A stretch of DNA of 64,000 bases from assembly GCF_009707385.1 (NCBI RefSeq), contig NZ_CP046115.1, positions 4,588,001 through 4,652,000 on the forward strand, in the 5' to 3' direction. Positions within the stretch are counted from its first letter, which is position 1; each line of letters begins with the position of its first letter. This DNA comes from Klebsiella oxytoca. Its GTDB lineage: Bacteria; Pseudomonadota; Gammaproteobacteria; Enterobacterales; Enterobacteriaceae. A program made the translations under genes and the position numbers. Of the stretch, positions 6,927 through 23,303 are shown one piece after another. Under the pieces are notes generated by a model. That model was given only the letters and a program-made list of their open reading frames with translations, was not told the DNA's origin and ran no database searches.

Positions 6927-7271
6927 ATATATCAGCAAAAAATATTTAGCCGCATTAATTGATAACTTAAGCGCACAAACCGTTAATTATTTTTAACGCT
7001 CATTACAGCCAATTATTTTCTGTCTATTCACTCAGGAAAATATTATTTCGCAAATGAAAATCACGGCGCCTTATCTCTCTTTGAGAGGCCCTTTCTACCA
7101 AATAATAAATAGTCTACCCCTTATGCCCTCAGGGCTGGCAACATGGGGTATACAGTTCGTTTCCTGCCGACACACCTGTTCATACAATGATTGCTTTCAA
7201 CATTATTTCAGGAGAATATCCGGGCTGTAGTAATCCCCTTGAATATATCGACAGACAGAGAAGTCCCACCA
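6927..7271. other. A+T-rich gap before the porin gene
   Basis: No coding sequence is supported here. From 7115 to 7150 there is a nested inverted repeat: TACCCC and GGGGTA arms around the palindrome GCCCTCAGGGC (7125-7135). It could fold in the porin leader RNA. None of the GTTTCAT/ATGAAAC palindromes found at 21501-21833 occurs here, so the porin may be controlled differently from the main catabolic operon. Confidence 0.5.
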
Positions 7272-8540
7272 GTGAAAAAAGAATTATCGTTAATCGCACT
7301 AGGCATTATTGCCGCCGCTCCGACCTTTGCCAGTCAACAATCAACGAGCCAAGGCTTTATCGAAGACAGTCATCTGGATCTGTTTTTACGCAACGCTTAT
7401 ATCAAACGTGATTATCGCGATGGGCTGGCGGATAAAGCCGAATGGGGACAGGGGATTATCGCCACCTTCGAGTCCGGCTTTACTCAGGGACCGGTCGGCT
7501 TCGGCGTGGACGGCATCGCCCAGTATGGCGTGAGGCTTGACGGTGGCCGTGGGCGCAGCGGCGCGGGCGGTATCGACTTTTTCGCCCAGGACAACGACGG
7601 CCGGGCAAAATCCGATCTCGCTAAATTCGGCGCCACCGCCAAAATGCGCTTCTCTGATACCGTGCTCAGCTACGGCAACCAACGCCCCATGCTGCCTATC
7701 GTCTACGCCGACGATTCTCGTCTACTGTACGAGAGCTATACCGGTACCATGCTAACTTCGAAAGAAATTGACGGTCTGGAAATCAACGCTGGCTATTTAA
7801 CCGATCAACAGCGTAAAAGCGACGACAGCCATGACAGCGGTTTGAAAAGCCTGACTTTCGGCGGCGCCAGCTATCAGTTCAGCGACCAGCTCAGCGGCGC
7901 GCTCTACGCTTCGCACGTCGAGGACGTGCTGAATAAGCAATATCTCGGCCTTAACTATAAGCAGCCGTTCGCCACCGGGCAGCAGCTGGTTCTCGATTTC
8001 AACGGCTATAACTCACGCCTGGAGCAAGAATACGCCGATGCCCAGGACACCGGACGCAGCAACAGCATCTGGAGTCTGGCTGCCAGCTATATCTGGGATA
8101 TCCACACCTTTAAAGTTGCCTACCAGCAAAGCAGCGGCAGCACCGGCTACCACTACGGCGGCTACCGCAATCAGGGCGGCGTTGGCGACGGCGGCAATAC
8201 CATCTGGCTGGCCAACTCCTACTGGTCTGATTTTAATGGCGAAGATGAACGTTCCTGGCAGGCGTCTTACGGGCTGGATTTTGCCGGACTGGGTTTGCCG
8301 GGGCTCACCTGGACTACCGCCTACGTGCGCGGCGATAATATTAAAACCGCAGAAACCAGTAACGGCAAAGAACACGAATGGTTCAACCAGCTGCAATATC
8401 AGGTTCAGAACGGCGTGGCGAAAGATTTGAAGTTCAGATTGCGCTACTCGGTACTGCGGGTTTCCAGCAACGCCAGCGACTATAACGTCAGCGGCAACGA
8501 AGTGCGTTTTTACGTCGAATATCCGTTTAACGTATTTTAA
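7272..8540 (+). CDS. OprD-family outer-membrane porin
   Basis: Predicted 18-stranded outer-membrane channel for small carboxylate substrates. The GTG at 7272 is preferred because it follows a GAGAAG ribosome site and begins a clean signal peptide (VKKELSLIALGIIAAAPTFAS). An ATG 27 codons upstream would put polar residues before the signal. The mature protein contains the typical FIEDSHLDLFLRNAYIKRDYRD opening strand region, many alternating beta segments and a C-terminal Phe (EYPFNVF). At 422 residues it fits the OprD/OpdK/BenF family, whose members often admit aromatic acids such as vanillate or benzoate. It converges on the ThDP enzyme gene, so it probably supplies the outer-membrane step for the adjacent pathway. 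The substrate is unknown. Confidence 0.85.
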   Translation: MKKELSLIALGIIAAAPTFASQQSTSQGFIEDSHLDLFLRNAYIKRDYRDGLADKAEWGQGIIATFESGFTQGPVGFGVDGIAQYGVRLDGGRGRSGAGGIDFFAQDNDGRAKSDLAKFGATAKMRFSDTVLSYGNQRPMLPIVYADDSRLLYESYTGTMLTSKEIDGLEINAGYLTDQQRKSDDSHDSGLKSLTFGGASYQFSDQLSGALYASHVEDVLNKQYLGLNYKQPFATGQQLVLDFNGYNSRLEQEYADAQDTGRSNSIWSLAASYIWDIHTFKVAYQQSSGSTGYHYGGYRNQGGVGDGGNTIWLANSYWSDFNGEDERSWQASYGLDFAGLGLPGLTWTTAYVRGDNIKTAETSNGKEHEWFNQLQYQVQNGVAKDLKFRLRYSVLRVSSNASDYNVSGNEVRFYVEYPFNVF

Positions 8541-8633
8541 CCCTGTTATGAACCCTGCCCTGCCGCCAGGCCCTCTCCCGGCGCGCAGGAGCGACCGCCC
8601 GACGCCTTGATTAACCCCCTGTGCCGTGCGGTA

Positions 8634-8660
8634 CCCTCTCCATGGAAGGGAGAGGGTTTT
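8634..8660 (+). terminator. Terminator-like hairpin after the porin gene
   Basis: CCCTCTCC (8634-8641) pairs with GGAGAGGG (8649-8656) around a 7-base loop and is followed by four T. It lies about 95 bases after the porin stop. Confidence 0.6.
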
Positions 8661-8706
8661 GGGTCACGGAACCGCAAACCTTTCCCGAAAGATCGGGGCA
8701 ATATTT

Positions 8707-8739
8707 AGCCCGGCTGAACGCGATATAAGCCGGGCTTTT
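8707..8739. terminator. Hairpin between convergent porin and ThDP-enzyme genes
   Basis: AGCCCGGC (8707-8714) pairs with GCCGGGCT (8729-8736). A T-rich tract follows on the plus strand and an A/T tract on the minus strand, so it may end transcription in both directions. The ThDP gene stops at 8767. Confidence 0.6.
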
Positions 8740-8766
8740 CTTCGGAAAAAGCGCTAGCGATGAGAG

Positions 8767-10407
8767 TTAATACAACGTCTTCTGCGGCGGGCCGGCAAAG
8801 CGCAGCGCGCCTATCTGGCCCATTTTAACTTCCACTACCGACGGCCCCGGCATCGCCAGCGCTTCGGTCATCACCGCCTGAAAATCCTCCGCCCGCTCCA
8901 CGCTCCACGCCTGCAGACCGATAGCCTGCGCCAGTAGGGTAAAGTCCGGGGTATGCAGCTCGTTGTAATACTGGCGGCCGCCAAAATACTTATCCTGAAT
9001 GCCGCGCATCACGCCGTAGCCGCCGTCGTTCATAATCAGCAGAGTGACATTGGCCTTTTCCTGAGCAAGCGTCGCCAGTTCGCCGAGGTTCAGGCTCAGG
9101 CCGCCGTCGCCCACCAGCCCCACCACTTTACGCTGCGGGTTGGCAATCGCGGTACCAATCGCCATCGGTAGCCCCATTCCGATAGCCCCGGCCAGCGAGT
9201 GAATATTCATCAGCGGACCGTGAGCGCGGAACAGACGGCTGCCCCACAGGCTGCCGGAAACGGTAATATCGCGCACCAGAATGCCGTCATCCGGCAGGGC
9301 CTGCGCAATCGCGTCATTCAATTTAGCGTAAGCGCCGCACTGTTCACGTAGCCCCTGCTCTGCCGCCGCTACCGCCGCTTTAAGCTGATTATCCCAGCGC
9401 GTATCGCCCCACATCCGACCCTGTACTCGCTTCGCCAGCGCGTCCAATAAAGCGCGGCAGTCCGCCACCAGCGTATTGTCCATCAGGTAGTTACGGCTGG
9501 CAGCCGCCGGGTCAATATCAATCTGCACCCGCGGCGTTGGCAGTTCCAGCGTCCACGAGCGCGTTTCGTTGCTGCGCAGACGTGAACCGGCCACAAGTGT
9601 GAAATCACATTGTGAAATCAACGTTTCTACCGACGGGGAATTATGAAATGCGCGCAGACTGCCGCGATGGCTGTCCGCCAGAATACCGCGCCCGTGAGTA
9701 CTGGAAATCACCGTCACCCCGGCATCGGCCAGCATCTTCACCGCCTCGCCGCACTCTAAAGCACCGCCGCCGAGCCACAGCAGCGGCTGCTTCGCCTGCT
9801 TAAGCTGCGCCCACAGCGCATCAACCATTGCCTCTTCAGCTTCCGCCACCGGTGCCGTTTTTAGCGGCGCGGTCAGCAGCGACAGCGGAATTTTAGCGCC
9901 CTGAATATCAATTGGGATCTCCACCGATACCGGACCGCACGGCGGCGTTTGCGCTTCCTGAATCGCCTTATGCAGAATAGCCACCGCCTGATTAGCGTTG
10001 CTGATGCGGTAAGCGCGCTTCGAGCTGGCTTTCAGAAAGGTCAGCTGATCGCGGGTTTCATGAATAAAGCCGGTATCGGCGTCCAGCCAGGCTTTTTCCA
10101 CCTGACCGGTGAGGTGCAGCAGCGGAGTACAGGCGTTCATCGCCTCAACCAGCGCGCCGACGGCGTTACCCGCCCCTGCGCCGGTGCTGGTCAGCGCCAC
10201 GCCAAGTCCGGAAAAACGCCCGTGCGCGTCGGCCATCGTCACCGAGCCCGCCTCCCCGCGCGCCGGGACAAAGCGGATTTTATCCCGCTGGCCGACGGCA
10301 TCGGCGATCGGCAGGTTATGGATAGAAATGACGCCATAAATGGCTTCAACGTGATACTGCTCCAGCGTTCTGGCGATGGCGTCGCCGACGGTTATCATCT
10401 CGCTCAT
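8767..10407 (-). CDS. ThDP-dependent enzyme, decarboxylase/acetolactate-synthase-like
   Basis: Cytosolic thiamine-diphosphate enzyme of the family that includes acetolactate synthase, benzoylformate decarboxylase and related 2-oxo-acid decarboxylases. The 546 residues contain the N-terminal pyrimidine domain with catalytic Glu52 (PARGEAGSV), a central domain, and a C-terminal domain with the ThDP/metal motif GDGG at 433-436 and the paired MNDGGYG at 459-465. It is the last gene of the leftward catabolic series, 14 bases after the aldehyde dehydrogenase. The pairing suggests decarboxylation of a 2-oxo acid to an aldehyde that the neighbour oxidises. The exact reaction cannot be assigned from sequence; a carboligase role is also possible. 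Confidence 0.85.
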   Translation of the reverse strand: MSEMITVGDAIARTLEQYHVEAIYGVISIHNLPIADAVGQRDKIRFVPARGEAGSVTMADAHGRFSGLGVALTSTGAGAGNAVGALVEAMNACTPLLHLTGQVEKAWLDADTGFIHETRDQLTFLKASSKRAYRISNANQAVAILHKAIQEAQTPPCGPVSVEIPIDIQGAKIPLSLLTAPLKTAPVAEAEEAMVDALWAQLKQAKQPLLWLGGGALECGEAVKMLADAGVTVISSTHGRGILADSHRGSLRAFHNSPSVETLISQCDFTLVAGSRLRSNETRSWTLELPTPRVQIDIDPAAASRNYLMDNTLVADCRALLDALAKRVQGRMWGDTRWDNQLKAAVAAAEQGLREQCGAYAKLNDAIAQALPDDGILVRDITVSGSLWGSRLFRAHGPLMNIHSLAGAIGMGLPMAIGTAIANPQRKVVGLVGDGGLSLNLGELATLAQEKANVTLLIMNDGGYGVMRGIQDKYFGGRQYYNELHTPDFTLLAQAIGLQAWSVERAEDFQAVMTEALAMPGPSVVEVKMGQIGALRFAGPPQKTLY

Positions 10408-10421
10408 TACTCACCCTTCTC

Positions 10422-11891
10422 TCAGTCGCACCAGTGGTTGACGCTATTACCCGTCGCCAGATAAATGCTCTTTTGCTGCATCCAGGCTTTCAGACCCTGG
10501 ATACCTTTTTCGCGGCCCAGACCGCTCTCTTTAAAGCCCCCGAACGGGGTCGAAATGGAGAAAACCTTGTAGGTGTTGATCCACACCGTACCGGCTTCCA
10601 GCTGTTCGCTCAGGCGTAACGCCCGGCCGGTATCGCGCGTCCAGATCCCTGCCGCCAGCCCGAAGACCGAGTCATTGGCCTCGCGGATCAGCGCCTCTTC
10701 ATCGCTAAAGCGCATCGCCACCAGCACCGGCCCAAAGATCTCTTCCTGGCAGACGCGGGCCTGATTGTTCAGTCCCTCAACGATCGTCGGCAGGAAATAG
10801 CTGCCCGCCGCCAGCGTCGGATCCGCCGGGATCTCGCCGCCGCACAGCACGCTGCCGCCTTCACGCTTCGCCAGTTCGACATACTCCAGCACGCTCTGGC
10901 GGTGCTTATCGCTAATCAGCGGTCCGACGTGAGTGTCGGCGCTAAACGGATGACCTACCCGCAGCCCGCGGGTTAATTCCAGCAGGCGGGCCATTAATTG
11001 TGGATACACTTTTTCATGAACAAACAGCCGCGAGCCGGCAATACATGCCTGGCCGCCGGAGCTGAAAATGCCGTAGCAGATGCCCCGCGCCGCCTGCTCG
11101 ATATCGGCATCTTCCAGCACGATGGTCGGCGATTTACCGCCCAGCTCCAGCGAAGCCGGGATCAGCTTTTCCGCCGCCACGTGCGCCAGATGACGTCCGG
11201 TAGTGGTGCCGCCGGTAAAGGAAATTTTGCGCACCTTAGGATGGCGAGCCAGCGCATCGCCGATAACCGATCCTTTCCCCGGCAGGACGCTCAGCAGCCC
11301 GGCTGGTAAACCGGCCTGCTCAAAGATCTTCGCCAGATCCAGCGCCATCAGCGGCGTCGCTTCCGCGGGTTTGAGGATCACCGCGTTACCGGCGGCGATC
11401 GCCGGAGCGACCTTCTGCATTTCGCTGGCGATCGGCGAGTTCCACGGCGTGATCGCCGCCACTACGCCCAGCGGTTCATAGCGGCTCAGAGTCAAAAGAT
11501 CCGCCTGACGCGGCGTCGGCAGCTCCCCTTCCAGCAGTTCGCAGGCGGCGGCAAAATAGCGTGCGGTGCCCGCGGCGCTCATCACCAGCCCGCGCGCTTC
11601 CGCCAGCGGTTTACCGTTGTCGCGGCTCTGCTTTTGAGTGAGCTCATCAAGCTGTGCTTCAATCAGATCGGCGACTTTATGCAGGATCTTTGCCCGCTGG
11701 TGTGGCAGCATCGTGCGCCACGCCGGTTCCCGCCAGGCGCGATCGGCACAGTCGATCGCTTCCTGCAGATCGTCCAGGCTTGCCGCATACAGCGCTGCAT
11801 TAATCGTTCCATCCGCCGGGAACTGGCTGTGCATCAGGTTGCCGCCGCCGCGACGCCACTGGCCGCCGATAAAAATGTCTAATTCGTCCAT
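10422..11891 (-). CDS. NAD(P)-dependent aldehyde dehydrogenase
   Basis: ALDH-superfamily enzyme oxidising an aldehyde to the acid. The 489-residue protein has the expected length. It shows the cofactor stretch ITPWNSP (Asn151), FTGGTTTG at 225-232, the general base Glu249 in LELGGKSP and the nucleophile Cys283 in SSGGQACIAGSR. All catalytic residues are intact. It lies between the aspartate-dehydrogenase homologue (15 bases away) and the ThDP enzyme (14 bases away), so it is surely cotranscribed with them. Its substrate is probably the aldehyde made by the ThDP enzyme, which is inference. It resembles betaine/aromatic aldehyde dehydrogenases more than semialdehyde types, but substrate cannot be read directly. 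Confidence 0.9.
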   Translation of the reverse strand: MDELDIFIGGQWRRGGGNLMHSQFPADGTINAALYAASLDDLQEAIDCADRAWREPAWRTMLPHQRAKILHKVADLIEAQLDELTQKQSRDNGKPLAEARGLVMSAAGTARYFAAACELLEGELPTPRQADLLTLSRYEPLGVVAAITPWNSPIASEMQKVAPAIAAGNAVILKPAEATPLMALDLAKIFEQAGLPAGLLSVLPGKGSVIGDALARHPKVRKISFTGGTTTGRHLAHVAAEKLIPASLELGGKSPTIVLEDADIEQAARGICYGIFSSGGQACIAGSRLFVHEKVYPQLMARLLELTRGLRVGHPFSADTHVGPLISDKHRQSVLEYVELAKREGGSVLCGGEIPADPTLAAGSYFLPTIVEGLNNQARVCQEEIFGPVLVAMRFSDEEALIREANDSVFGLAAGIWTRDTGRALRLSEQLEAGTVWINTYKVFSISTPFGGFKESGLGREKGIQGLKAWMQQKSIYLATGNSVNHWCD

Positions 11892-11906
11892 CTTAGCCTC
11901 TCTGCG

Positions 11907-12671
11907 TTATGCCAGTTCACAGCAGGCGCGTACCGCGCTCAGTGCCGCCAGGGTCGAAGTTTTTGGATTGCTGGCAAGCGGCAGACCGCTTAACTCCAGA
12001 TGAAATTCGCCGAACAGCCCTTCGGCGTGCAGCGTATGGGTATTGCGCTGGGTCGCCGGATCCACCATCAGCTGCACCCGGGTCGCATCCAGACCAATAC
12101 CGCCCAGCGCAACGGTCGCCGCCACGTTGGCGTTAGCCGGGAACAGCCGCGCCGCTTCGCGGGCGCTGCCCTCGAAGAAGATTTGCGTTTCATTCACCGC
12201 ATTAAGGTCAATAAGCTGCTCGGCATAGCTGCCGCGCCAGCTGGCCGGACTTTTACGCGATTGATAGGTCACGCGCTCAAGTCCCCCCTCTTTCGCCGCT
12301 GCCAGACCATCAATACCGGCTATCGCTCCGCTCAGCAGCGTCAGCTTGCCGCCCGCCTGGCGTAAGCGCTGTTCCAGTTCGCTGTCCGCCAGCGCCCCGG
12401 TGGAGATCACCGCCAGATGCCAGCCGCGGGCCAGCACCGCTTCGCCGTACTGGGCCACCGCCTGCTGGCTGGCGCACTCAAGCACCAGATCCGGCGTTTC
12501 ATCGCATTGCTGCGGATCGCTCAGGGCAACGACCGCGTTGGCAAACTGCTGACGGATCGCCTCATGATGCGGTTCACGCGCTACGATCCAGCCCAACGAC
12601 ACCTGCGGCGGCAGACGTTCAATGACCGCCTGCGCCATCGCGCCATAGCCGATTAACATCACCTTTTTCAT
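11907..12671 (-). CDS. L-aspartate dehydrogenase homologue (NadX type)
   Basis: Predicted NAD(P)-dependent oxidoreductase of the aspartate dehydrogenase family, which interconverts L-aspartate and iminoaspartate/oxaloacetate plus ammonia. The 254 residues begin with the Rossmann motif MLIGYGAMAQ and include the family signatures LSGAIAGIDGLAAA, QSRKSPASWRG and FPANANVAATVALGG. A histidine in NTHTLHAEG lies where the active-site His is expected. It sits inside the catabolic series, 9 bases after an SDR gene. No nadA or nadC homologue is nearby, so a role in NAD synthesis is unlikely. The enzyme may act on an amino or imino intermediate of the pathway, or handle released ammonium. Confidence 0.82.
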   Translation of the reverse strand: MKKVMLIGYGAMAQAVIERLPPQVSLGWIVAREPHHEAIRQQFANAVVALSDPQQCDETPDLVLECASQQAVAQYGEAVLARGWHLAVISTGALADSELEQRLRQAGGKLTLLSGAIAGIDGLAAAKEGGLERVTYQSRKSPASWRGSYAEQLIDLNAVNETQIFFEGSAREAARLFPANANVAATVALGGIGLDATRVQLMVDPATQRNTHTLHAEGLFGEFHLELSGLPLASNPKTSTLAALSAVRACCELA

Positions 12672-12680: not shown

Positions 12681-13475
12681 TTACAGGTGACGGCAGAAGC
12701 CGCCGGAAACATCCAGCGCCGCGCCGGTGGTAAATGAAGCCAGCGGTGAGGCGAGGAACAGCAGCGCCCGTGCCGGTTCCTGCGGTTTGCCGAGGCGCGC
12801 CATCGGGATCCCGCGTTTGTGGGCGATATCGGCGGTCCACTGCGGCCAGCTCTGGCTCTTATCGCTGCGGTTTTCAAAACGGCGCTGCCACTGCCCGGAC
12901 TCAACCATGCCCAGCAGAATCGAATTCACGCGGATGCCTTTGCCGACCAGCTCTTTCGACAGCGTGAGCGTCATATTGAGCAATGCGGCGCGGGCGGCGG
13001 AGGTGGCGATCATGTGCTCTTCCGGCTGCAGCGCCAGCAGCGAGTTCACGCAGGTAATCGATGCAATGTCCGACTGCTCAAGCTGCGGCTGGAACGCCTT
13101 TACCGGGTTAATTACGCCGAACAGCTTCAGTTCGGCTTCGTGTAGCCAGGCCTCGCGCGGCGTATCGGCAAAATGGGCGACGTAGCCCTGGCCCGCGTTG
13201 TTGATCAGCATGTCCGCGCCGCCGAAATGCGTCTTCACCGCTGCGGCAAAGGCCTGAACCTCTTCTTCCTTCATGACGTCACAGCGCCATGAAAATACTT
13301 CGCCTGTGGGATATTCGTTTAGCAGTGCCGCATGAGCGCTGGCCAGACGGTCCGGGTTGCGGCCGCAAAAGGCGACTTTCGCCCCTTCGCCCAGCAGCAG
13401 ACGCAGCGTTTCGAAGCCGATCCCTGACGAACCGCCGGTGACCACCGCGACGCGTCCTTCAATTTGTGCATTCAT
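12681..13475 (-). CDS. Divergent short-chain dehydrogenase/reductase (Tyr/Lys replaced)
   Basis: SDR-fold protein of 264 residues with an intact cofactor motif TGGSSGIG (13-20) and NNAG (92-95). The expected catalytic serine is present (Ser145), but 13 residues later the usual tyrosine is Thr158, and the lysine four residues after that is Arg162 (the stretch reads ATSAARAAL). The canonical YxxxK is therefore absent although the fold and C-terminus (LDVSGGF) look sound. I recall similar ATSAAR proteins in proteobacterial clusters, so this is probably an established subfamily rather than a broken gene. Function could be an unusual catalysis or an auxiliary subunit. It overlaps the hydrolase gene by 17 bases, implying translational coupling. 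Confidence 0.82.
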   Translation of the reverse strand: MNAQIEGRVAVVTGGSSGIGFETLRLLLGEGAKVAFCGRNPDRLASAHAALLNEYPTGEVFSWRCDVMKEEEVQAFAAAVKTHFGGADMLINNAGQGYVAHFADTPREAWLHEAELKLFGVINPVKAFQPQLEQSDIASITCVNSLLALQPEEHMIATSAARAALLNMTLTLSKELVGKGIRVNSILLGMVESGQWQRRFENRSDKSQSWPQWTADIAHKRGIPMARLGKPQEPARALLFLASPLASFTTGAALDVSGGFCRHL

Positions 13476-14232
13476 CGCGCACCTCTTCCCCTATGCGTAA
13501 AAGCTGTTGGTTAAAAAACGTTTCGTTATCGAGATAGCTGGCATGCCCGGCCTGCGGGATGGCGGTGTAAGGCATGCGGTAGCGCAGCGCCAGTTCCTGT
13601 ACCCTATCCGGCGGGGTAATGGCATCCTGTTCGCCGCACCACACGGCAAAGCGACCGTGATAGTCGGCAAGCCAGCGGTGAATATCATCGTGCGCCAGCA
13701 TCCAGGCGGCCGCGAGATAGCCTTCGCTGCGCAGCCTGCGCATGCCTGCCGCCACCGTCGCCACGTCGGCTTCGCGCGCGCCGGGACGCAGCAGCTTCGC
13801 CGCCCGCTCCTGAGCCATCGCTTCACCGCCCTGCGCCATCTGCTGCTGACGTCCCTGCCAGACCTTTTCCCGCTGCGCGGCCTGCGCCTGGCCGTATCCC
13901 TGAGCAACGTCGGCGAGCACCAGATAAAGCACCCGCTGCGGGTATTTGGCGGCAAAGGCGGCCGCCACCAGCGCGCCCAGCGAGTGGCCAACCAGTACGG
14001 TTTGCCCTACCCCAGCGCGATCCAGCATCAGCGCCAGCGCGTCGGCATAGTCGCCGGCATCCGCCTGCGCCGTCGGGAGCATCGGGCTTTCGCCATAACC
14101 GGGCATATCCCAGGCCACAACGCGGTAGCCGGGAAGCGCCATTTGTTTATGCCAGGAGGCCGCCCCGGAGCTGATACCGTGTAGCAACGTCAGGGGTATA
14201 CCGCTTCCTTGTTCACGAAAACCCGTCATCAT
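13459..14232 (-). CDS. Alpha/beta-fold hydrolase
   Basis: Cytosolic serine hydrolase of 257 residues with a complete triad: nucleophile Ser84 in the elbow VGHSLGA, Asp203 in CGEQDAIT and His230 in QAGHASY. The oxyanion-region LLHGISSG is at 16-23 and WDMPGYGES at 41-49. In extradiol pathways such hydrolases (MhpC/BphD type) cleave the carbon-carbon bond of the ring-fission product, and an extradiol-type dioxygenase lies upstream in the same series. An ester or lactone substrate is equally possible. It is tightly packed between the cupin (6 bases) and the SDR (17-base overlap). Confidence 0.85.
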   Translation of the reverse strand: MMTGFREQGSGIPLTLLHGISSGAASWHKQMALPGYRVVAWDMPGYGESPMLPTAQADAGDYADALALMLDRAGVGQTVLVGHSLGALVAAAFAAKYPQRVLYLVLADVAQGYGQAQAAQREKVWQGRQQQMAQGGEAMAQERAAKLLRPGAREADVATVAAGMRRLRSEGYLAAAWMLAHDDIHRWLADYHGRFAVWCGEQDAITPPDRVQELALRYRMPYTAIPQAGHASYLDNETFFNQQLLRIGEEVRDECTN

Positions 14233-16062: not shown

Positions 16063-17259
16063 TTATCGCAATGACATCAACGAGAAAGTCAGATCGCCGA
16101 GCGGGACTTCTGCAAGATCCCTCCCCGCCGCCATCCAGCGTTTTGCCAGCTTGACGGTGCGCGCATCGTTAAACGCCACCAGTTGGCTTAACCTTCCATC
16201 CTCCTTAAGGGAGAAATAGAGCGCACCCTTGGGATCGTCGCGGACGATGGTACGGCTGCCCGCCTGCGGAATACCGAGGATCTGAATATTGCGATCGTAC
16301 TGATCCGACCAAAGCCACGGGGCCTCGTCGTAGCCGTCGGCCTGCGGATTGAGCATCGCTTTCGCCGTCGCCACCGCCTGGTTTTGCGCGAAAGCCCATG
16401 ACTGAATACACAGTCCGTACTGATGGTGCTGAGCGACATCGCCGGCGGCGTAAATCGCCGGATCGCTGCTGCGTCCCTGGGAATCAACGATAATTCCGCG
16501 CTCAATCTCCAGCCCGGCATCGCGCGCCAGTTCGAGATTCAGATCGACGCCGATCCCTACCACCACCGCGTCGAAGGTTTCCCGCTGACCGTCGCAGTGC
16601 AGCGTTGGCAGGCCGTTATCGTCTTCCAGTTCCAGCGCGCCGCAGCCGCAGCGAATATCCACGCCCTGCTCGCGGTGCAGCTGCGCCAGCGCCTGCGAAA
16701 CTTCCGCGCTCACCGAGCGCATACATAAAGCCGGCTGCTGTTCATAAAGAGTCACGGCTACGCCGCTTTTACGCGCCGAGGCGGCAATCTCCAGGCCAAT
16801 CCAGCCACCGCCGACAATTGCCAGCCGGGTTGCCGACGCCAGCCGCTGTTTCAGGCGCTGCGCATCCTGCCAGTGGCGCAGGGTATATACCTGCGGATGC
16901 CGTGCCCAGGCTTCAGAAGGCAGGCGCGCGCGTCCACCGGTGGCGATCAGCAGCTGGTCATAGGCCAGCGTTTCACCGTTGCTCAGAGCCACCGTTTTAT
17001 TCGCGCGATCGATTGATTCGGCGCGTAGCGGGCGATACCACTTAAGATCCAGCGCCTGCTGCGCTTCTTCGCTGAATAATCGCGGCAGCGCCGGTTCAGC
17101 CTCCAGCAATGCCGCTTTCGACAGCGGCGGGCGCTCGTAAAAGTCCCATTGCTCTTCAGCGACCACGCAAATCTCTCCGCTGAATCCTTCGTCGCGCAGC
17201 GTTTTCGCCGCCCAGCCGCCCGCCTGGCCGCCGCCGATAATGACTATCCGCGCCGTCAT
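16063..17259 (-). CDS. FAD-dependent ferredoxin reductase of a Rieske oxygenase system
   Basis: Passes electrons from NAD(P)H to the Rieske ferredoxin encoded upstream (HcaD/BphA4 class). The start at 17259 follows a GGAGG site and makes an ATGA overlap with the dioxygenase stop. It begins MTARIVIIGGGQAGGWAAKTL with the FAD dinucleotide fold. A second Rossmann motif (AIVGGGWIGLEIAAS) binds NAD(P)H and a third stretch, IYAAGDVAQ, closes the FAD site. The 398 residues match the family. An ATG 21 codons upstream would extend it into a glycine/arginine-rich stretch with no homology. Together with the ferredoxin and the oxygenase it completes a three-component oxygenase. Confidence 0.9.
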   Translation of the reverse strand: MTARIVIIGGGQAGGWAAKTLRDEGFSGEICVVAEEQWDFYERPPLSKAALLEAEPALPRLFSEEAQQALDLKWYRPLRAESIDRANKTVALSNGETLAYDQLLIATGGRARLPSEAWARHPQVYTLRHWQDAQRLKQRLASATRLAIVGGGWIGLEIAASARKSGVAVTLYEQQPALCMRSVSAEVSQALAQLHREQGVDIRCGCGALELEDDNGLPTLHCDGQRETFDAVVVGIGVDLNLELARDAGLEIERGIIVDSQGRSSDPAIYAAGDVAQHHQYGLCIQSWAFAQNQAVATAKAMLNPQADGYDEAPWLWSDQYDRNIQILGIPQAGSRTIVRDDPKGALYFSLKEDGRLSQLVAFNDARTVKLAKRWMAAGRDLAEVPLGDLTFSLMSLR

Positions 17260-18182
17260 ACTGCCTCCGGCTTTTTCTGCTGGCGGCGAGTATCGTGGTC
17301 GATACCGCCCTCCACCGCCCATTCGGTAAAGGAAACGAGCGAGTGCTCCAGTTCGCGCGGCTGCCAGTTTTCCGTCAGATAATCATCGTTGGTGTAATAC
17401 TCGAAGGCGCCGCCGGTCGGGCTGTTGACGTACCAGAAGTAGGCCGAAGAGACCGGATGACGGCCTGGGCCGATAAAGGTGCTCCAGGCATTTTTATTCA
17501 TCGCGATGCCGCCGCCGATCACCTCGTGAATATCGCGAACGGTAAAAGCAACATGGTTTAATCCGGGCTTGCGGCCAGGTAGCTGCAGCAGAAAGAGATT
17601 GTGGTGGCCGCCGTGCACGCCGCAGCGCAAGAATACCGCGCGATTAATGTAGCGGTCTGAAACCTGGAAACCGAGGATCTCACGATAGAAGCTCTCCACG
17701 GCCGCCAGCTCTTCGACGAAGAACACCACGTGGCCTACGTTGATCGGCTGCGCGCGATCGTAAACCGGGCTTGGCGTGTCGATGCGGCGAATATCGCCCC
17801 ACTGGTTGATTGGTTCAACGTTCAGTTCCACCGGCGTCTGCTGGCTTACCTGAACGCGTAGGGTCATGCCGTTGGGATCGCGACACTCCAGCGCGCCGTC
17901 GATTTCACGAAAACCGGGTTGACGCTCAAGCTTCGGTCGCAGCGCATCCAGCGCCGCCTGGTCCGCCACGCCCCAGGTCATACGACGCAGCGTATTGCCC
18001 GCTTCAAAGGCCGGCGGCAGGTCCGCGGCGTCCGTCGGGTTAAGTTCGACGCGCGCGCCGCTGAGGGTAGTAAACACGCGGCCGCTGGCATCGCCAGTCA
18101 GGCCAAAATCCTGCATAAATTTAGCGCAATGCTGAAGGTCGTCTACGCCAAATTCCAGCTTTTCAATTCCGGTAATACTCAT
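17256..18182 (-). CDS. VOC-family extradiol ring-cleavage dioxygenase
   Basis: Two-domain vicinal-oxygen-chelate protein of 308 residues, likely an Fe(II) extradiol dioxygenase opening a catechol-type ring. The C-terminal domain has the 2-His-1-carboxylate triad: His151 (NVGHVVFF), His210 (GLNHVAFTVRD) and Glu261 (GGAFEYYTND). A His pair at 193-194 (GGHHNLFL) lies where second-sphere residues of the family are found. The N-terminal domain lacks these ligands, as usual for type I enzymes. The start at 18182 has a GAGGCGA ribosome site; a longer reading frame adds 20 unconvincing residues. It follows the IclR gene and overlaps the reductase by four bases. Confidence 0.88.
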   Translation of the reverse strand: MSITGIEKLEFGVDDLQHCAKFMQDFGLTGDASGRVFTTLSGARVELNPTDAADLPPAFEAGNTLRRMTWGVADQAALDALRPKLERQPGFREIDGALECRDPNGMTLRVQVSQQTPVELNVEPINQWGDIRRIDTPSPVYDRAQPINVGHVVFFVEELAAVESFYREILGFQVSDRYINRAVFLRCGVHGGHHNLFLLQLPGRKPGLNHVAFTVRDIHEVIGGGIAMNKNAWSTFIGPGRHPVSSAYFWYVNSPTGGAFEYYTNDDYLTENWQPRELEHSLVSFTEWAVEGGIDHDTRRQQKKPEAV

Positions 18183-18269: not shown

Positions 18270-19058
18270 TTAACTAGCCTGCGACAAATATCCCAGGAAA
18301 CCGGAAATTCTGTCCGCCGCTATGCTGACGTCGTTCTGTAACCGTTCGCGATCGCTTTGCGGGATCTCATCGGATGGCACCAGAATACTTACCACCCCGG
18401 CCACCCGGCCGCTGCGGTCATACACCGGATAGACAATCGATGAGATACCGTGGCGGAAGAACGATTCGCCGATTACGTACCCGCGGGCTTTATCCTGCTG
18501 CACCATCTGCCACAGCGCTTCGCGATCGTGCAGCTGGCCCGGGGTATTGCCCGGCAGCCGCTCGTCGGGGAACAGCTGTTCGAACTCGCTGCGTGGAACA
18601 TCGGTCAGCAGCATGCGGCCCAGCGAAGTACAGTGCACCGGCAGCCGCGTGCCGACGCTGACCTGGTTTATCCGCGAACCGGCAGCGCTGACGCGGGCGA
18701 TATAGATAATGTCCCGGCCGTCGCGGATCGCCAGATGGCTGCTGCACTGGCTGACATCGCGAAGCTGCTCGATAACCGGCTGGCCCACCTGCGCAATATC
18801 CAGCGAGGCGATATATTCAAAGCCCAGCCGCAGCACGTTCATCCCCAGCGAAAAGGTGTTGGTACGCGCGTTGCGCTCAAGAAAACCCATATACTCAAGC
18901 GTCTGCACCACGCGATAGGCGGTTGCTTTCGGCATATCCACCAGCCGATGCAGCTCGGCGAAGGTCAGTTCGCGATGCTGTTCGCCGAAGGCCAGCAGCA
19001 GCTGTAAACCGCGCTCAAGACCGGGCACCAGATACTTCACTTCCTGATCGTTCGCCAT
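18270..19058 (-). CDS. IclR-family transcriptional regulator
   Basis: DNA-binding regulator of 262 residues with an N-terminal winged helix (about 15-75, including FAELHRLVDMPKATAYRVVQ) and a C-terminal effector-binding domain (GRDIIYIARVS, VGTRLPVHCTSLGRMLL, RGYVIGESFF, SILVPSDEI). IclR proteins of this kind, such as PcaR and PobR, control aromatic catabolism and bind inducing acids. The start MANDQEV has a GAGG site; a longer form would overlap the SDR gene upstream. It sits inside the operon it probably controls. The palindromes at 21501-21516, 21771-21786 and 21818-21833 are the likely binding sites. Confidence 0.9.
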   Translation of the reverse strand: MANDQEVKYLVPGLERGLQLLLAFGEQHRELTFAELHRLVDMPKATAYRVVQTLEYMGFLERNARTNTFSLGMNVLRLGFEYIASLDIAQVGQPVIEQLRDVSQCSSHLAIRDGRDIIYIARVSAAGSRINQVSVGTRLPVHCTSLGRMLLTDVPRSEFEQLFPDERLPGNTPGQLHDREALWQMVQQDKARGYVIGESFFRHGISSIVYPVYDRSGRVAGVVSILVPSDEIPQSDRERLQNDVSIAADRISGFLGYLSQAS

Positions 19059-19071
19059 ACCGCCTCGCTTA

Positions 19072-19821
19072 TTAGTTAAAAACAAAACCGCCGTTGACCG
19101 GGATTAGCTGACCGGTGATAAATCGCGACAGATCGCTGAGCAGCCAGACCACGCTACCGGTGACATCCTCAGGCTGCTGCGCGCCGCTGAGCGCACGGCC
19201 ATTCTCATACAGCTGATGGCGCTCGGCGGGAACGTATTCCGTCGCCTCGACGCGGGTTAGCCCCGGCGCGATGGCATTAATACGGATCCGTTTTTCACCC
19301 AGTTCGCGGGCCATTGAACGGGTCATCGCAATCACCGCGCCCTTACTGGCGACATAGGCCATCAGTCGCGGAGCGCCCCACAGCGCGGTATCCGAGGCGA
19401 CGTTGACGATCCCAGCCCCTTCGCGCAGCAGCGGCACCGCCGCGCGAGTTACCAGCCAGGTGCCTTTGACGTTAACCGTCATCACCCGATCCCAGAGATC
19501 CGGATCGTAATCGAGCATATTTTTACCGCCGACGCCGGTGGCCATCGCGGCGTTATTCACTAACCCGTCAATTGGCCCCCGCTCACCGATAGCGTGGAAT
19601 ACCCGGTCGATCGAATCACCGTCAGCAAGATCGATGACGTGGGCTTCGATGCGGTGACCGTTTTCCTGGAGACGATGGGCGCTTTCCGCCAGCTCGCCTT
19701 GCAGAATGTCGCACATCACCACCGACGCGCCCTGTTCGGCGCAGGCGGCGGCAAAATGGTAGCCCAGGCCACGCGCCGCACCGGTAACAACAATGCGTTT
19801 ACCGTTCAGCAGGCCGTTCAT
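19072..19821 (-). CDS. Classical short-chain dehydrogenase/reductase
   Basis: NAD(P)-dependent oxidoreductase of 249 residues with a complete SDR active site: TGAARGLG (13-20), NNAA (89-92), Ser143, Tyr156 and Lys160 (YVASK). In Rieske oxygenase operons such an enzyme usually re-aromatises the cis-dihydrodiol to a catechol, and its position directly after the oxygenase (ATGA overlap at 19819-19823) supports that. An Asp near 38 (MCDIL) after the second beta strand suggests NAD preference. It contrasts with the second SDR of the cluster, which lacks Tyr and Lys. Confidence 0.9.
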   Translation of the reverse strand: MNGLLNGKRIVVTGAARGLGYHFAAACAEQGASVVMCDILQGELAESAHRLQENGHRIEAHVIDLADGDSIDRVFHAIGERGPIDGLVNNAAMATGVGGKNMLDYDPDLWDRVMTVNVKGTWLVTRAAVPLLREGAGIVNVASDTALWGAPRLMAYVASKGAVIAMTRSMARELGEKRIRINAIAPGLTRVEATEYVPAERHQLYENGRALSGAQQPEDVTGSVVWLLSDLSRFITGQLIPVNGGFVFN

Positions 19822-20843
19822 CAGGCTGCACCCTTCTGCTCTTCACGGATGGCCAGCTGTTCCTTCGCCGCTTTCTGCATCATGCGGCGCAGACGGGAAA
19901 GACCAACGTCGTGCTGATAAAGGTATTCATGATCGCGAGCATTCGGCGCCAGGCTTTCCAGCACCACGCGATCCTGTTCAAGTACTTCCCAGTGCAGTTT
20001 TTCCAGACGGTTGCGGTACATGAAACGCCACAGATCGCGCTGCCAACCTTGTACGCCGCGGATACGCCAGAAGAAGACGCGGCAGTTGTCGTTATCTTCC
20101 GGAACCACCATACCCACGATCCAGAAGTGGCCGCCTGGTCCAAAGCGTTTCTGATACGGGATAGAGAGACGCATCCAGTAGGTTCCGCTGTGGCCCAGCT
20201 CAACCCAGTCGAAGTTGACGCCGACCTGTCCTTTTTTCTCGAAGATAAAGCCGGTTTCCGTCGGCTGCAGGACCATATCGGCTTTGCGATCGCCTTCCGC
20301 CATCGAGTGTGATGAGGAGTGCAGATAGGTGCCGTGCATCGGGTCCATGACGTTTTCCAGCGCGTACTGGTAGTTACATTTCCACGCTGCGGTACACAGA
20401 AAGTTGCTGTATTTGTCACTATTAGCCAGCTCTTCGGGAAAGCTCAGTTCTTCCGGCTGCTGGTCTTCCGTAACGCCGAACCACAAGAAAATAGCGCCAT
20501 GAACTTCCTGGACGTTGTAGCTGCGAACGCACTTCTGGCCGACCAGCGGGCAGCGGTCAACCGCCGGAACATCTTTCACTTCACCGTCACCGGCCACTTC
20601 CACGCCGTGATACCAGCAGGCGATACGATCGCCCAGGTTCCAGCCCATCGACAGGCGCGCGCCGCGGTGCGGGCAGCGGTCTTCCAGCGCTTGTACCTGA
20701 CCGTCTTTATTACGCCAGATAACAATCTGCTCGCCGAGACGGGTAATGCCTACCGGCGCTGATTGCACTTCCCAGCTCGCCAGTACCGGATACCACAGAC
20801 CGCGTAGTCCTTTATCAAGATAGTTTTGTACCGTTGTTGTCAT
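19821..20843 (-). CDS. Rieske non-heme iron oxygenase, catalytic subunit
   Basis: Hydroxylates an aromatic substrate with electrons from a separate ferredoxin. The 340 residues have a Rieske [2Fe-2S] site (Cys57, His59, Cys76, His79 in CPHRG and CWYHG) and a mononuclear iron site (ENVMDPMHGTYLH: bridging Asp167, His170, His175). The start at 20843 has a GAGGA site; an upstream in-frame ATG gives 34 extra residues overlapping the next gene and is rejected. No beta-subunit gene exists, so it is an alpha-only oxygenase of the VanA/phthalate/carbazole-oxygenase type rather than benzoate-dioxygenase type. The substrate cannot be told from sequence; an aromatic acid or ether is the best guess. Confidence 0.92.
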   Translation of the reverse strand: MTTTVQNYLDKGLRGLWYPVLASWEVQSAPVGITRLGEQIVIWRNKDGQVQALEDRCPHRGARLSMGWNLGDRIACWYHGVEVAGDGEVKDVPAVDRCPLVGQKCVRSYNVQEVHGAIFLWFGVTEDQQPEELSFPEELANSDKYSNFLCTAAWKCNYQYALENVMDPMHGTYLHSSSHSMAEGDRKADMVLQPTETGFIFEKKGQVGVNFDWVELGHSGTYWMRLSIPYQKRFGPGGHFWIVGMVVPEDNDNCRVFFWRIRGVQGWQRDLWRFMYRNRLEKLHWEVLEQDRVVLESLAPNARDHEYLYQHDVGLSRLRRMMQKAAKEQLAIREEQKGAA

Positions 20844-20853
20844 CGCTGTGTCC

Positions 20854-21162
20854 TCAGTATCCGTTAACCTGCAAAAATGCCTCAAAGCTGCTTTCGTTCC
20901 ACGGTTCGCCCTGCTGGTCGTACATTCTGATGCCGTTAAGACCATTCACCAGTTCGCTCAGCGTTTCCGCGCCCTGTTCGAAAAGGGTTTCCAGCGTTGC
21001 GATAAGCTGAAGCTCCCAGTTTTCCGGCACCCGGCTACGGGTCTGCCAAATCAAATTATGGTAGTCGCCAGGCTGATGGATATTGCCATTACCACCCTCC
21101 GCCGGCGGCGTAAACTGACGGTTTTCCGGCAGCGCCGGGTTGAAGTCCAGGGATTCGCTCAT
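20854..21162 (-). CDS. 102-residue protein of unknown function between oxygenase components
   Basis: Small acidic cytosolic protein lying between the Rieske ferredoxin (ATGA overlap) and the oxygenase (10 bases), so it is translated with them. Residues about 30-60 are predicted helical (DYHNLIWQTRSR, LQLIATLETLFEQG). The C-terminal half (LSELVNGLNGIRMYDQQGEP followed by WNESSF) resembles the helical repeat at the C-terminus of large serine recombinases (LN..G....G..W....). I recall similar proteins annotated as recombinase-like helix-turn-helix proteins beside Rieske oxygenases. No metal-binding Cys/His cluster is seen. It could be an assembly factor, a small subunit or a regulator; none is demonstrated. 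Confidence 0.75.
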   Translation of the reverse strand: MSESLDFNPALPENRQFTPPAEGGNGNIHQPGDYHNLIWQTRSRVPENWELQLIATLETLFEQGAETLSELVNGLNGIRMYDQQGEPWNESSFEAFLQVNGY

Positions 21163-21482
21163 GCCACGTTCTCCTCGATAAAAGTAATCTGGATCTGATT
21201 GTCGTATACCCGTACCGGGTAACGATTAAGGTTGCGGCCACCGGGGCCATGCAGGCACTGGCCAGTTTTGACGTCGAATACCGCTTCATGCAGCGGGCAT
21301 TCCACTTTGCCATCTTCAACAAATCCCTGGCTCAATAGCGCATAGGCATGAGGGCAAACGTCTTCCAGCGCGTAATATTCGCCATCAATCAAATAAATAC
21401 CGATTTCTTTACCGTCGATATTGCCGCTATAAGGAAAATCTTCCTGTACTTGCTCCGCGTCACATACGCCTATCCAGCTCAT
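21159..21482 (-). CDS. Rieske-type [2Fe-2S] ferredoxin
   Basis: Electron carrier from the flavin reductase to the Rieske oxygenase. The 107 residues include the cluster ligands Cys43, His45 (CPHAYA) and Cys62, His65 (CPLHEA), with FDVKTG following as in HcaC/BphA3 ferredoxins. It is the first gene of the leftward catabolic series, with a strong GGAGG site 7 bases before the ATG. A perfect 16-base palindrome lies 18-34 bases upstream of the start, so the operon is probably repressed there. It is told from nitrite-reductase small subunits (NirD) by length and by its partners. Confidence 0.92.
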   Translation of the reverse strand: MSWIGVCDAEQVQEDFPYSGNIDGKEIGIYLIDGEYYALEDVCPHAYALLSQGFVEDGKVECPLHEAVFDVKTGQCLHGPGGRNLNRYPVRVYDNQIQITFIEENVA

Positions 21483-21500
21483 CGCAATCCTCCAGGCTTT

Positions 21501-21516
21501 GTTTCATATATGAAAC
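21501..21516. promoter_or_regulatory. Perfect 16-base palindrome, probable IclR operator (site 1)
   Basis: GTTTCATATATGAAAC is fully self-complementary. It lies 19-34 bases before the ferredoxin start, at or just after the likely promoter of the catabolic series, where a bound repressor would block transcription. The same arms recur at 21771 and 21818. Confidence 0.75.
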
Positions 21517-21670
21517 TTTGTTTCTTATGTAATACGGTCAATATAAAAGCGACTAATATTTCGTCAAGCGTTAATGTGATTGAATTGTTAACAAAAGGCT
21601 TTTTAATTAGCTAAGTGTGGAATTGATCACGAAAAATTGCAGCCAGATGAAATGATGATATTTAAAGCGT

Positions 21671-21711
21671 GGTTTCATTATAAATATTACTACCTCTTCA
21701 AATTTGAAACC
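21671..21711. promoter_or_regulatory. Widely spaced half-sites of the same motif
   Basis: GGTTTCA (21671-21677) and TGAAACC (21705-21711) are inverted half-sites 27 bases apart in the middle of the divergent promoter region. They repeat the arms of the full palindromes and could be auxiliary contacts. Confidence 0.45.
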
Positions 21712-21770
21712 TGGCTATTGACTTCTTTTCATGGTGATCATTAAAAATGAACTCCACGGCAAATAGTCGG

Positions 21771-21786
21771 GTTTCACAGATGAAAC
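21771..21786. promoter_or_regulatory. Near-perfect palindrome, probable IclR operator (site 2)
   Basis: GTTTCACAGATGAAAC shares both arms with site 1. It lies about 120 bases before the divergent MFS gene. Confidence 0.7.
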
Positions 21787-21817
21787 AAACAATAATTTTT
21801 ACCTTTAAAAACATCAA

Positions 21818-21833
21818 GTTTCATAGATGAACC
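21818..21833. promoter_or_regulatory. Imperfect palindrome, probable IclR operator (site 3)
   Basis: GTTTCATAGATGAACC differs from site 2 by three bases. It starts 47 bases after site 2, between four and five helical turns, and lies about 75 bases before the MFS start. Confidence 0.65.
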
Positions 21834-21906
21834 ATTTTCATTAAGTGACTATTTCGCACGTTTAAAAAATAACAATCAGCATTGATGAAATTAGGCAAAG
21901 AGGCAA

Positions 21907-23130
21907 ATGATGACGGCAAGATGGCAAGGAACTCTGGCATTACTTTTGTTAATAATTATTTCTTATGTCGATCGGGTAAATATCTCAGTAATGATAATCA
22001 ACCCCGATTTCGCCGCTCACTTTCATTTAAATGAAAACAGAATGTTACAAGGCATGCTGATGACATGCTTTCTTCTGGGTTATGGATTCTCGGCTTTGTT
22101 ATTAACTCCGCTTATAGAAAGTAAGCTAAATTACCGTCAGGGACTGTTAGGCAGCGTTACCATATGGGCATTAGTGTGCGCAATCTCACCGCTTTTGGGT
22201 TCGCTGCTGGGAATGTTAATCGCGCGCATTGTGCTCGGCGTCGCCGAGGGGCCGCTCTTTTCGCTAAAAACCCGCTTTATCAACGATAATTTCGCCGCCG
22301 ATGAGGTTGGCAAACCCAACGCCGTGACCGCTCTTGGCGTCTCGCTTGGCCTGGCCGTAGGCTTCCCGCTGGTCACCTGGTTGATGGCCCACGTCGGCTG
22401 GATGGGGTCGTTTTACGCCCTGGCGGTGCTGAACCTGGCGCTTGGAGGTGGAGTGATCTTGCGCTTTTTGCCCGCCCCCGCCGCTAATGAACGCCGCGCG
22501 AAACCAGGCATCATCAAAACCTTTACTCTCGCGTGGCGCACGCCTCTGCTCGGCTGGATCCTGCTGGTGGAGATAGCCACCCTCAGCTATCTGTGGGGCA
22601 GCAGCGCCTGGCTGCCTGCCTGGCTGCGCGACGAACATCACTTTTCGCTCCAGGCTACCGGCATGCTGGCAGCGCTCCCCTTCCTGCTGAGCCTGGGATC
22701 AAAATTTCTCGGCGGGGTGCTCCTCGATAAGATGCGACCGGAGCAAGCGCCAGTGCTGTTTATTTTCGGCGGCCTGCTGACTGCCCTTTCGGTACTGGCG
22801 CTCATGCTCAGTCAGCAAACGGCGATGCTGGCGCTTTTTATGCTGGCGGCGAACGTTTTCTGGGGATTGCAGGGCGCAGCAATTCCCGCGGTCATACAGC
22901 ACCATGCGCCGCGTGAAGCGGTGGGCAGCGCCTATGGGATCATTAACGGTATCGGCAATATCTGCGCGGCGTTTATTCCACTGCTGATGGGAATGGTGAT
23001 GAAATCGGTGGGCTCGGTGAGTTCGGGTTTTTCGGTGCTGGTGGTATCACAGCTGGTTACGCTCTGTGCCGGAGGCGTACTGCTGCTGCGCATGCGTCGC
23101 GCAGCAGCAGTAAACACCTCTATCCCCTAA
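21907..23130 (+). CDS. MFS transporter, divergent from the catabolic series
   Basis: Inner-membrane carrier of 407 residues with about 12 membrane segments. Helix 1 carries SYVDRVNISVMI and helix 4 carries GVAEGPLFSLKTRF, typical of the anion:cation symporter family. Its promoter region is shared with the ferredoxin-led series and holds three GTTTCAT/ATGAAAC palindromes, so the two are probably induced together. An ATGATG at 21907 allows either of two starts. It is followed at once by an ERIC element and then by the convergent speB. Likely the main uptake system for the pathway substrate, with the in-operon MFS as a second carrier; this is inference from position. Confidence 0.88.
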   Translation: MMTARWQGTLALLLLIIISYVDRVNISVMIINPDFAAHFHLNENRMLQGMLMTCFLLGYGFSALLLTPLIESKLNYRQGLLGSVTIWALVCAISPLLGSLLGMLIARIVLGVAEGPLFSLKTRFINDNFAADEVGKPNAVTALGVSLGLAVGFPLVTWLMAHVGWMGSFYALAVLNLALGGGVILRFLPAPAANERRAKPGIIKTFTLAWRTPLLGWILLVEIATLSYLWGSSAWLPAWLRDEHHFSLQATGMLAALPFLLSLGSKFLGGVLLDKMRPEQAPVLFIFGGLLTALSVLALMLSQQTAMLALFMLAANVFWGLQGAAIPAVIQHHAPREAVGSAYGIINGIGNICAAFIPLLMGMVMKSVGSVSSGFSVLVVSQLVTLCAGGVLLLRMRRAAAVNTSIP

Positions 23131-23303
23131 ATAATTCGAGTTGCAGGACAAAACGGCTAGCCGTTTTGAACAGCGCTTGCGCTGGCCCCGTAGGGGCGAG
23201 GCCGAAGGCCCGAGTCACGCGGCGACGCAGAGAATCCCCAGGAGCTTACCCAAGTAAGTGACTGGGGTGAGCGAGGAAAATGCAACCTGAAGTATGACGG
23301 GGA
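23131..23303. repeat. ERIC element with internal insertion
   Basis: The core is unmistakable: GAATCCCCAGGAGCTTAC (23232-23249) followed by AAGTAAGTGACTGGGGTGAGCG-type sequence (23252-23273), the conserved centre of enterobacterial repetitive intergenic consensus elements. The ends, AATTCGAGTTGCA (from 23133) and TGCAACCTGAAGTA (from 23281), form imperfect inverted repeats. Between the left end and the core lie about 75 extra bases with their own inverted repeats (AAAACGGCTAGCCGTTTT at 23150-23167), so this is an insertion-bearing variant. It lies between the convergent MFS and speB genes at the right edge of the catabolic block. Confidence 0.88.

Follow-up and report, generated by a model that had tools for sequence, protein, structure and literature searches.

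What is the function of the 16 kb of DNA that separates loiP from speB in Klebsiella oxytoca? The block lies at positions 6927..23303 of the window analysed here, a stretch of 64,000 nucleotides (contig NZ_CP046115.1, positions 4,588,001-4,652,000), and an initial annotation described it as an aromatic-type catabolic cluster covering uptake, ring hydroxylation and ring opening, a coverage that the gene classes support. The block is probably an IclR-regulated operon for the aerobic catabolism of kynurenate (4-hydroxyquinoline-2-carboxylate) or of a very close 4-oxo-quinoline-2-carboxylate, a prediction that draws on pathway logic, the known activity of an orthologous L-aspartate dehydrogenase (AspDH) and modular comparisons between related clusters. 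Kynurenic acid is a tryptophan product that is active in the gut and the brain and, to our knowledge, the bacterial enzyme activities that degrade it have been without assigned genes for ~60 years. The chances seem to us evenly balanced that the block and its relatives represent the missing gene set of the quinoline branch of tryptophan catabolism, in the form of a swappable module (a Rieske oxygenase for kynurenate, or a flavin hydroxylase with a sulfatase for xanthurenate and its sulfate), and that gut and opportunistic carriers could consume host kynurenate. If so, these activities would gain genes, and kynurenate turnover would become readable from genomes and metagenomes. Klebsiella, Enterobacter, Serratia, Acinetobacter and others would be predicted to remove a host signalling metabolite, by a lower ring-cleavage route whose end product is an amino acid instead of pyruvate plus acetaldehyde.

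The proposed route begins with uptake, in which kynurenate would be imported by an outer membrane porin (7272..8540, plus strand) and two major facilitator superfamily (MFS) carriers, MFS1 (14780..16036) and MFS2 (21907..23130, plus strand); MFS1 and all of the enzyme genes that follow are on the minus strand. A three-component Rieske dioxygenase, comprising an alpha subunit (19821..20843), a ferredoxin (21159..21482) and a ferredoxin-NAD+ reductase (16063..17259), would convert kynurenate to its 7,8-cis-dihydrodiol (the reaction of Enzyme Commission (EC) number 1.14.99.2), which the short-chain dehydrogenase/reductase (SDR) SDR1 (19072..19821) would rearomatize to 7,8-dihydroxykynurenate (EC 1.3.1.18). 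Cleavage between positions 8 and 8a by the VOC-type (type I) extradiol dioxygenase (17256..18182) would then give 5-(3-carboxy-3-oxopropenyl)-4,6-dihydroxypicolinate (EC 1.13.11.10). A second SDR, SDR2 (12681..13475), is the candidate for reduction of the side-chain double bond to the oxopropyl derivative, a thiamine diphosphate (ThDP)-dependent enzyme (8767..10407) for decarboxylation of the 2-oxo acid to the 5-formylethyl derivative, and an aldehyde dehydrogenase (ALDH, 10422..11891) for oxidation of the latter to 5-(2-carboxyethyl)-4,6-dihydroxypicolinate. The pyridine ring would finally be opened by an alpha/beta hydrolase (13459..14232), perhaps with a cupin (14239..14769), to a C5 acid and aminofumarate/iminosuccinate; hydrolysis of both the lactam and the C4-C5 bond would make the C5 acid glutarate. 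AspDH (11907..12671) would reduce iminosuccinate to aspartate, although the imine might instead decay to oxaloacetate and ammonia.

This scheme balances at each of its nine steps. A Rieske oxygenase, an SDR and an extradiol dioxygenase accompanied by a decarboxylase, an ALDH and an AspDH form an odd set for benzenoid acids but the set that the kynurenate route needs. Taken in sequence, the enzyme classes correspond to the intermediates of the pathway worked out in Pseudomonas in the 1960s (Hayaishi, Taniuchi and Horibata), from oxygenase to aldehyde oxidation, and both end in amino acids. They differ in that the Pseudomonas pathway is known as enzyme activities and reportedly yields glutamate and alanine, whereas the AspDH of the block points to a C4 imino or amino acid. 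Excerpts of two papers give 5-(2'-carboxyethyl)-4,6-dihydroxypicolinate as a metabolite of tryptophan pathways (PMC12388018, PMC10543884). Among the matches listed in a literature search, mostly of sources other than subscription journals and bioRxiv, no paper was found that ties genes to catabolism of the kynurenate ring; a paper seen in excerpt is concerned with conversion of kynurenine to anthranilate in Acinetobacter and not with the present cluster (PMC9162365).

The block is a real, widespread and conserved catabolic system. Relatives were sought by tblastn (E <=1e-3) among GTDB representatives, and the best 80 of 572 matching stretches, not all of which are necessarily this cluster, were fetched with a 10 kb flank. 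Within the DNA fetched, and with tblastn fragments below 30% of the query dropped, all 11 core genes are present in 67 of the 80, and carriers include Enterobacterales, Acinetobacter, Aeromonas and Paraburkholderia; in most of the other 13 the contig or flank ends before the remaining genes. In locus L068 genes foreign to the cluster follow the reductase, and locus L071 has no SDR2, AspDH or ALDH though its DNA runs on. Leaving the IclR gene aside, Enterobacterales, Acinetobacter, Aeromonas and Ignatzschineria share a near-constant gene order, which is permuted in Paraburkholderia and Caballeronia. The recurrence of gene content, and largely of gene order, in such distant taxa argues that the block is not a chance assembly. 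A close homolog of the ThDP enzyme (E <=1e-110) was found in 15 of 398 sampled Pseudomonadota genomes, and in all 12 of those outside the family of the window SDR2 adjoins it and more module genes lie nearby. Nearer to hand, 11 of 20 genomes of the same genus (that of the window included) encode the oxygenase at >=93% identity, one of them with an internal stop; two have only a ~29% paralog and seven gave no match. In a Symbiopectobacterium locus (L043) only the ferredoxin, a small PF20552 protein and the oxygenase are left of the cluster in the DNA fetched, which suggests decay.

Does the upper half of the block have the parts that dihydroxylation of a ring would need? By gene class the ring-dihydroxylating oxygenase system is complete, with Rieske alpha subunit, ferredoxin and flavin adenine dinucleotide (FAD)-type reductase, and both the Rieske and the mononuclear-iron ligands of the alpha subunit are conserved among aligned homologues. 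In SDR1, a classical SDR and the proposed dihydrodiol dehydrogenase, YxxxK is retained in 100/100 aligned rows (here and below, motif counts cover recognisable members, with rows under per-family identity thresholds of 27-50% or 70% coverage excluded). The VOC protein falls in the extradiol dioxygenase class with conserved H151, H210 and E261, and its predicted structure, which aligns with extradiol dioxygenases, is extradiol-like in fold. The terminal oxygenase is a 340-aa VanA_C-type alpha subunit on its own (PF00355 plus VanA_C), and the two-subunit (alpha/beta) terminal dioxygenase of classical meta-cleavage pathways was not found in the block. This alpha-only architecture, together with the presence of demethylases among its PDB relatives, would also suit demethylation (O- or N-) or monooxygenation of a methylated N-heterocycle or phenolic, with SDR1 acting further down the pathway as an alcohol dehydrogenase. 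We regard that reading as highly improbable, given that a putative phthalate 4,5-dioxygenase and carbazole dioxygenase outscore the demethylases and that the oxygenase and SDR1 genes are jointly absent from the DNA fetched for four alphaproteobacterial loci (L119, L121, L122 and L135). The PDB matches also include the Rieske terminal oxygenases of carbazole 1,9a-dioxygenase and 2-oxoquinoline 8-monooxygenase, although these match mainly in the N-terminal half and serve pathways other than that of the block.

The small neighbour of the oxygenase is a 102-aa protein of the 'recombinase-like HTH' family PF20552 (HTH_62; 20854..21162, minus strand), encoded between the ferredoxin and the oxygenase, and it is not a ring-hydroxylating beta subunit. 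It accompanies the oxygenase in 80/80 loci and may belong to the Rieske system as an accessory component. Its AlphaFold2 model (mean predicted local distance difference test score 73) gave no PDB match at E <=0.001 in Foldseek. In one metagenome protein (P0002) it is fused to the oxygenase, possibly by read-through.

How, then, is the cleavage product finished? The initial annotation noted the lack of an MhpD/MhpE-type hydratase/aldolase pair and, for that reason, held that the downstream chemistry must be new or outsourced. The lack itself stands: family scans of the open reading frames (ORFs) of the block revealed no such pair, and no 2-hydroxypentadienoate hydratase, hydroxyoxovalerate aldolase or acylating aldehyde dehydrogenase. 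Outsourcing fares less well, and a different, self-contained lower route is likelier. A generic aromatic upper pathway whose product is completed by enzymes encoded elsewhere would account for the missing pair, but it is a decidedly unlikely explanation of a block whose ThDP enzyme, ALDH, AspDH, SDR2 and hydrolase genes stay together with the upper genes even in distant taxa, so that the lower route appears to be local. We think that this route lies inside the block and consists of reduction, 2-oxo-acid decarboxylation, aldehyde oxidation, hydrolysis and imino-acid reduction; the gene classes for the side-chain steps (reductase, 2-oxo-acid decarboxylase and aldehyde dehydrogenase) are present and co-conserved, their substrates being putative. 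The E. coli hca/mhp system for 3-phenylpropionate likewise has a Rieske ferredoxin, FAD reductase, dihydrodiol SDR, extradiol dioxygenase, hydrolase and MFS carrier, but the block differs from it in having no beta subunit and no MhpD, MhpE or MhpF types, and in having the ThDP enzyme, ALDH, AspDH and an atypical SDR.

That atypical SDR is SDR2 (PRK07062 above cut-off), the proposed C=C reductase, in which YxxxK is replaced by TSAAR or TSSAR and the Tyr/Lys pair of alcohol dehydrogenases is absent (96/96 aligned rows). A relative of known structure, Q9HYA2 of Pseudomonas aeruginosa (3lf1/3lf2), shares the ATSAAR motif; Q9HYA2 and its neighbours (PA3504-PA3508) include an AspDH, a ThDP enzyme and an ALDH, and among the matches listed in a literature search there was no paper on these genes. 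The ThDP enzyme (PRK07064 above cut-off; TPP N, M and C domains), the proposed 2-oxo-acid decarboxylase, has acetolactate synthases and benzoylformate decarboxylases among its PDB relatives. In the ALDH, whose matches to ALDH models are below cut-off among the 25 matches listed, E249 and C283 are conserved in aligned homologues. The alpha/beta hydrolase (Abhydrolase Pfam), proposed to act on the pyridine ring, retains GHSLG in 94/94 aligned rows, and its best PDB match is an esterase, the fourth being alpha-(N-acetylaminomethylene)succinate hydrolase.

For AspDH (PRK13303.1-3 above cut-off) an activity is known from an ortholog. The K. pneumoniae enzyme KpnAspDH is a 254-aa, NADPH-preferring dehydrogenase specific for oxaloacetate/aspartate (PMC5554190). 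The ends encoded by the primers used for it match the AspDH of a K. pneumoniae cluster in our set (L022), which is 92% identical to that of the window and marks the latter as a KpnAspDH ortholog. An aspartate-specific enzyme, and a hydrolase gene present in 70/80 loci, would also fit a carbocyclic aromatic-aspartate conjugate (e.g. an N-aroyl- or hydroxycinnamoyl-aspartate) from which the hydrolase frees aspartate for AspDH and the ring carbon goes through extradiol cleavage. This we consider improbable, for family scans of the block found no CoA (coenzyme A) ligase, hydratase or aldolase that could process the ring carbon, and the decarboxylase, aldehyde dehydrogenase and atypical SDR would be left unexplained.

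Which ring enters the pathway can be approached by comparing clusters that differ in their first steps. The alphaproteobacterial core is hydrolase-VOC-SDR2-ThDP-AspDH-ALDH. In the DNA fetched, the four loci mentioned above have no Rieske oxygenase, SDR1 or cupin and retain the hydrolase, VOC, SDR2, ThDP and ALDH genes, with AspDH in 3/4 (not detected in L135). They have instead a flavin hydroxylase, TRAP transporter genes and a sulfatase, and L121 has a second flavoprotein of the phenol-hydroxylase type. Clusters of the Halomonas/Saccharospirillum type have both the Rieske arm and the flavin hydroxylase, five of them with a sulfatase as well, and seven flavin hydroxylases from across these loci are 58-82% identical to one another. 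The joint absence of the oxygenase and SDR1 is what would be expected of a dihydrodiol-forming and -oxidizing pair. We read this as two entry arms to one lower pathway, namely dioxygenation plus dehydrogenation of an unhydroxylated ring versus a single hydroxylation of a ring that is already hydroxylated (and sometimes sulfated), which fits dioxygenation of kynurenate and single hydroxylation of 8-hydroxykynurenate (xanthurenate), respectively. The best PDB relative of one flavin hydroxylase (L062) is 6-hydroxynicotinate 3-monooxygenase (NicC), and the resemblance of this partner enzyme to a pyridine-carboxylate hydroxylase counts further against an aspartate conjugate. NicC and the fourth PDB match of the hydrolase both recall ring opening in nicotinate and vitamin B6 catabolism, although those enzymes are distant relatives and act on another ring system.

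The same comparison raises the possibility that the chemistry is as proposed but the physiological substrate is another quinoline-2-carboxylate, such as quinaldate, xanthurenate or a plant or insect 4-quinolone-2-carboxylate, with kynurenate an intermediate or a minor substrate. That some clusters include a flavin hydroxylase and a sulfatase hints at several entry substrates, several Serratia have the cluster, and Serratia marcescens 2CC-1 reportedly uses quinaldate via kynurenate. This is nevertheless unlikely, since the block of the window is without a flavin hydroxylase and general scans of the ORFs of the block showed no molybdenum hydroxylase for quinaldate. In several Alphaproteobacteria the cluster is followed by genes for a pentapeptide-repeat protein and a flavodoxin (L145:17520-18119, L151:17434-18036 and similar loci); it is speculation that such proteins protect gyrase, as Qnr does, next to a possible quinolone-carboxylate pathway.

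Several observations weigh against kynurenate. The substrate, the order of steps and the individual roles of SDR2, the hydrolase and the cupin are what we infer, and it is by inference that the genes are tied to kynurenate. The cupin (Cupin_2), found in 71/80 loci and not detected in the four flavin-hydroxylase-only clusters, has no assigned step. A homolog of SDR2 with TSAAR on plasmid pCAR3 (L144) adjoins an alpha/beta hydrolase, an aldolase, an acylating dehydrogenase and a fumarylacetoacetate-hydrolase-family gene; the family is therefore not specific to N-heterocycles, and the part that SDR2 plays after ring cleavage may be a broader one. The accessible part of a 2024 review, citing Horibata 1961, states that certain pseudomonads form glutamate, alanine and organic acids, not aspartate, from kynurenate, and names no genes (PMC11354673). 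The identity of the C5 product is uncertain, with glutarate the simplest candidate, and the CsiD glutarate route was not found in the genome of the window (the E. coli control was positive). On a Pseudosulfitobacter plasmid, LysR, CoA-transferase and acyl-CoA dehydrogenase genes beside the cluster looked like a glutarate operon, but the proteins missed the glutarate-specific cut-offs (275/750 bits for succinate-glutarate CoA-transferase; 230/470 bits for the glutaryl-CoA dehydrogenase Acd) and so are not used as support.

Linkage to kynurenine genes lends kynurenate at most weak support. Of 70 genomes or records that have the cluster, 49 encode a kynureninase scoring above cut-off; 21 of the 70 could be matched to a cluster by contig (45 reached via other loci were left out, and four are plasmid records without kynureninase). 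Among the 18 comparable genomes, three have kynureninase on the contig of the ThDP gene and no more than ~30 kb from it (at 12, 26 and 30 kb), a limit chosen after the hits were seen; at the same distance the controls gave 1/17 for hutH and 0/20 for hmgA. In the closest case kynureninase is ~7 kb from the first module gene and adjoins a tryptophan 2,3-dioxygenase gene (380 bits, cut-off 391), and the genes scanned in the gap are unrelated (a radical S-adenosylmethionine DNA-repair protein, a kinase, a TIM-barrel protein, ArsH and an aquaporin-like channel).

How the cluster is controlled is suggested by the 424-bp divergent promoter region between the ferredoxin and MFS2 genes (21483..21906). 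It contains perfect GTTTCA-N4-TGAAAC palindromes at 21501-21516 and 21771-21786 and a third, with one mismatch, at 21818-21833. At <=2 mismatches the window has eight sites where 2.07 would be expected, and 0/100 shuffles reached eight; half of the eight fall in the promoter region; the whole genome has five perfect sites, two of them here, versus one for a control pattern. Within 450 bp upstream of the ferredoxin gene, 35/80 relatives have a perfect site and 44/80 a site with <=1 mismatch, usually with one ~35 bp before the ferredoxin start in enteric loci; in most loci of Paraburkholderia and of the Halomonas type the 450 bp searched contain no such site. The IclR-family protein (18270..19058, minus strand), which is PcaR/PcaU/PobR-like below cut-off, is predicted to bind these putative operators. 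An operator shared with the porin gene was considered and found unconvincing, as only two overlapping 10-base words are in common. Elsewhere, two further perfect sites (L159:6805-6868, genome 5331804-5331867) stand upstream of a gene for a 398-aa protein that is porin-like by eye, which may be a further target of this regulator or a related one.

In its overall layout the block runs, from speB to loiP, from the divergent MFS2 through the co-directional ferredoxin, PF20552 protein, Rieske alpha subunit, SDR1, IclR and VOC genes, and on through the ferredoxin reductase, MFS1, cupin, hydrolase, SDR2, AspDH, ALDH and ThDP genes to the convergent porin. Overlaps of starts and stops within the co-directional run (e.g. 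13459-13475, 17256-17259, where the reductase start overlaps the VOC stop, and 21159-21162) make the arrangement resemble a single operon. All genes listed by the initial annotation proved to be intact ORFs at the positions it gave, with family matches as expected; its list lacked the PF20552 protein and SDR2. Matches for the IclR protein, the reductase (HcaD/AndAa-like), the ALDH and the MFS carriers (a galactonate-transporter subfamily model for MFS1) fall only below curated cut-offs. The porin ORF is listed from a TTG at 7191, and a signal-peptide-like stretch points to a start at ~7272; the protein has only a weak ChiP match (39.5/750 bits), and its K. pneumoniae ortholog (94%), in the same place, is annotated as OprD family. 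A link to plant beta-glucosides, prompted by a GH1 gene before the cluster in one Providencia, was dismissed, other relatives having different genes there.

Finally, the block lies at a junction said to be closed in E. coli: loiP and speB are neighbours, 205 bp apart, in the single E. coli genome read. When the 16.4 kb block was compared by megablast with 5426 E. coli genomes, none covered 80% of it and there were 420 matches, the best coverage among the matches listed being 1% (~150 bp, near the speB end). These trace to a repeat-like segment beside speB (23121-23275), which matches 420 of the 5426 genomes, lies at bsmA in two among the matches listed and is probably an interspersed repeat.

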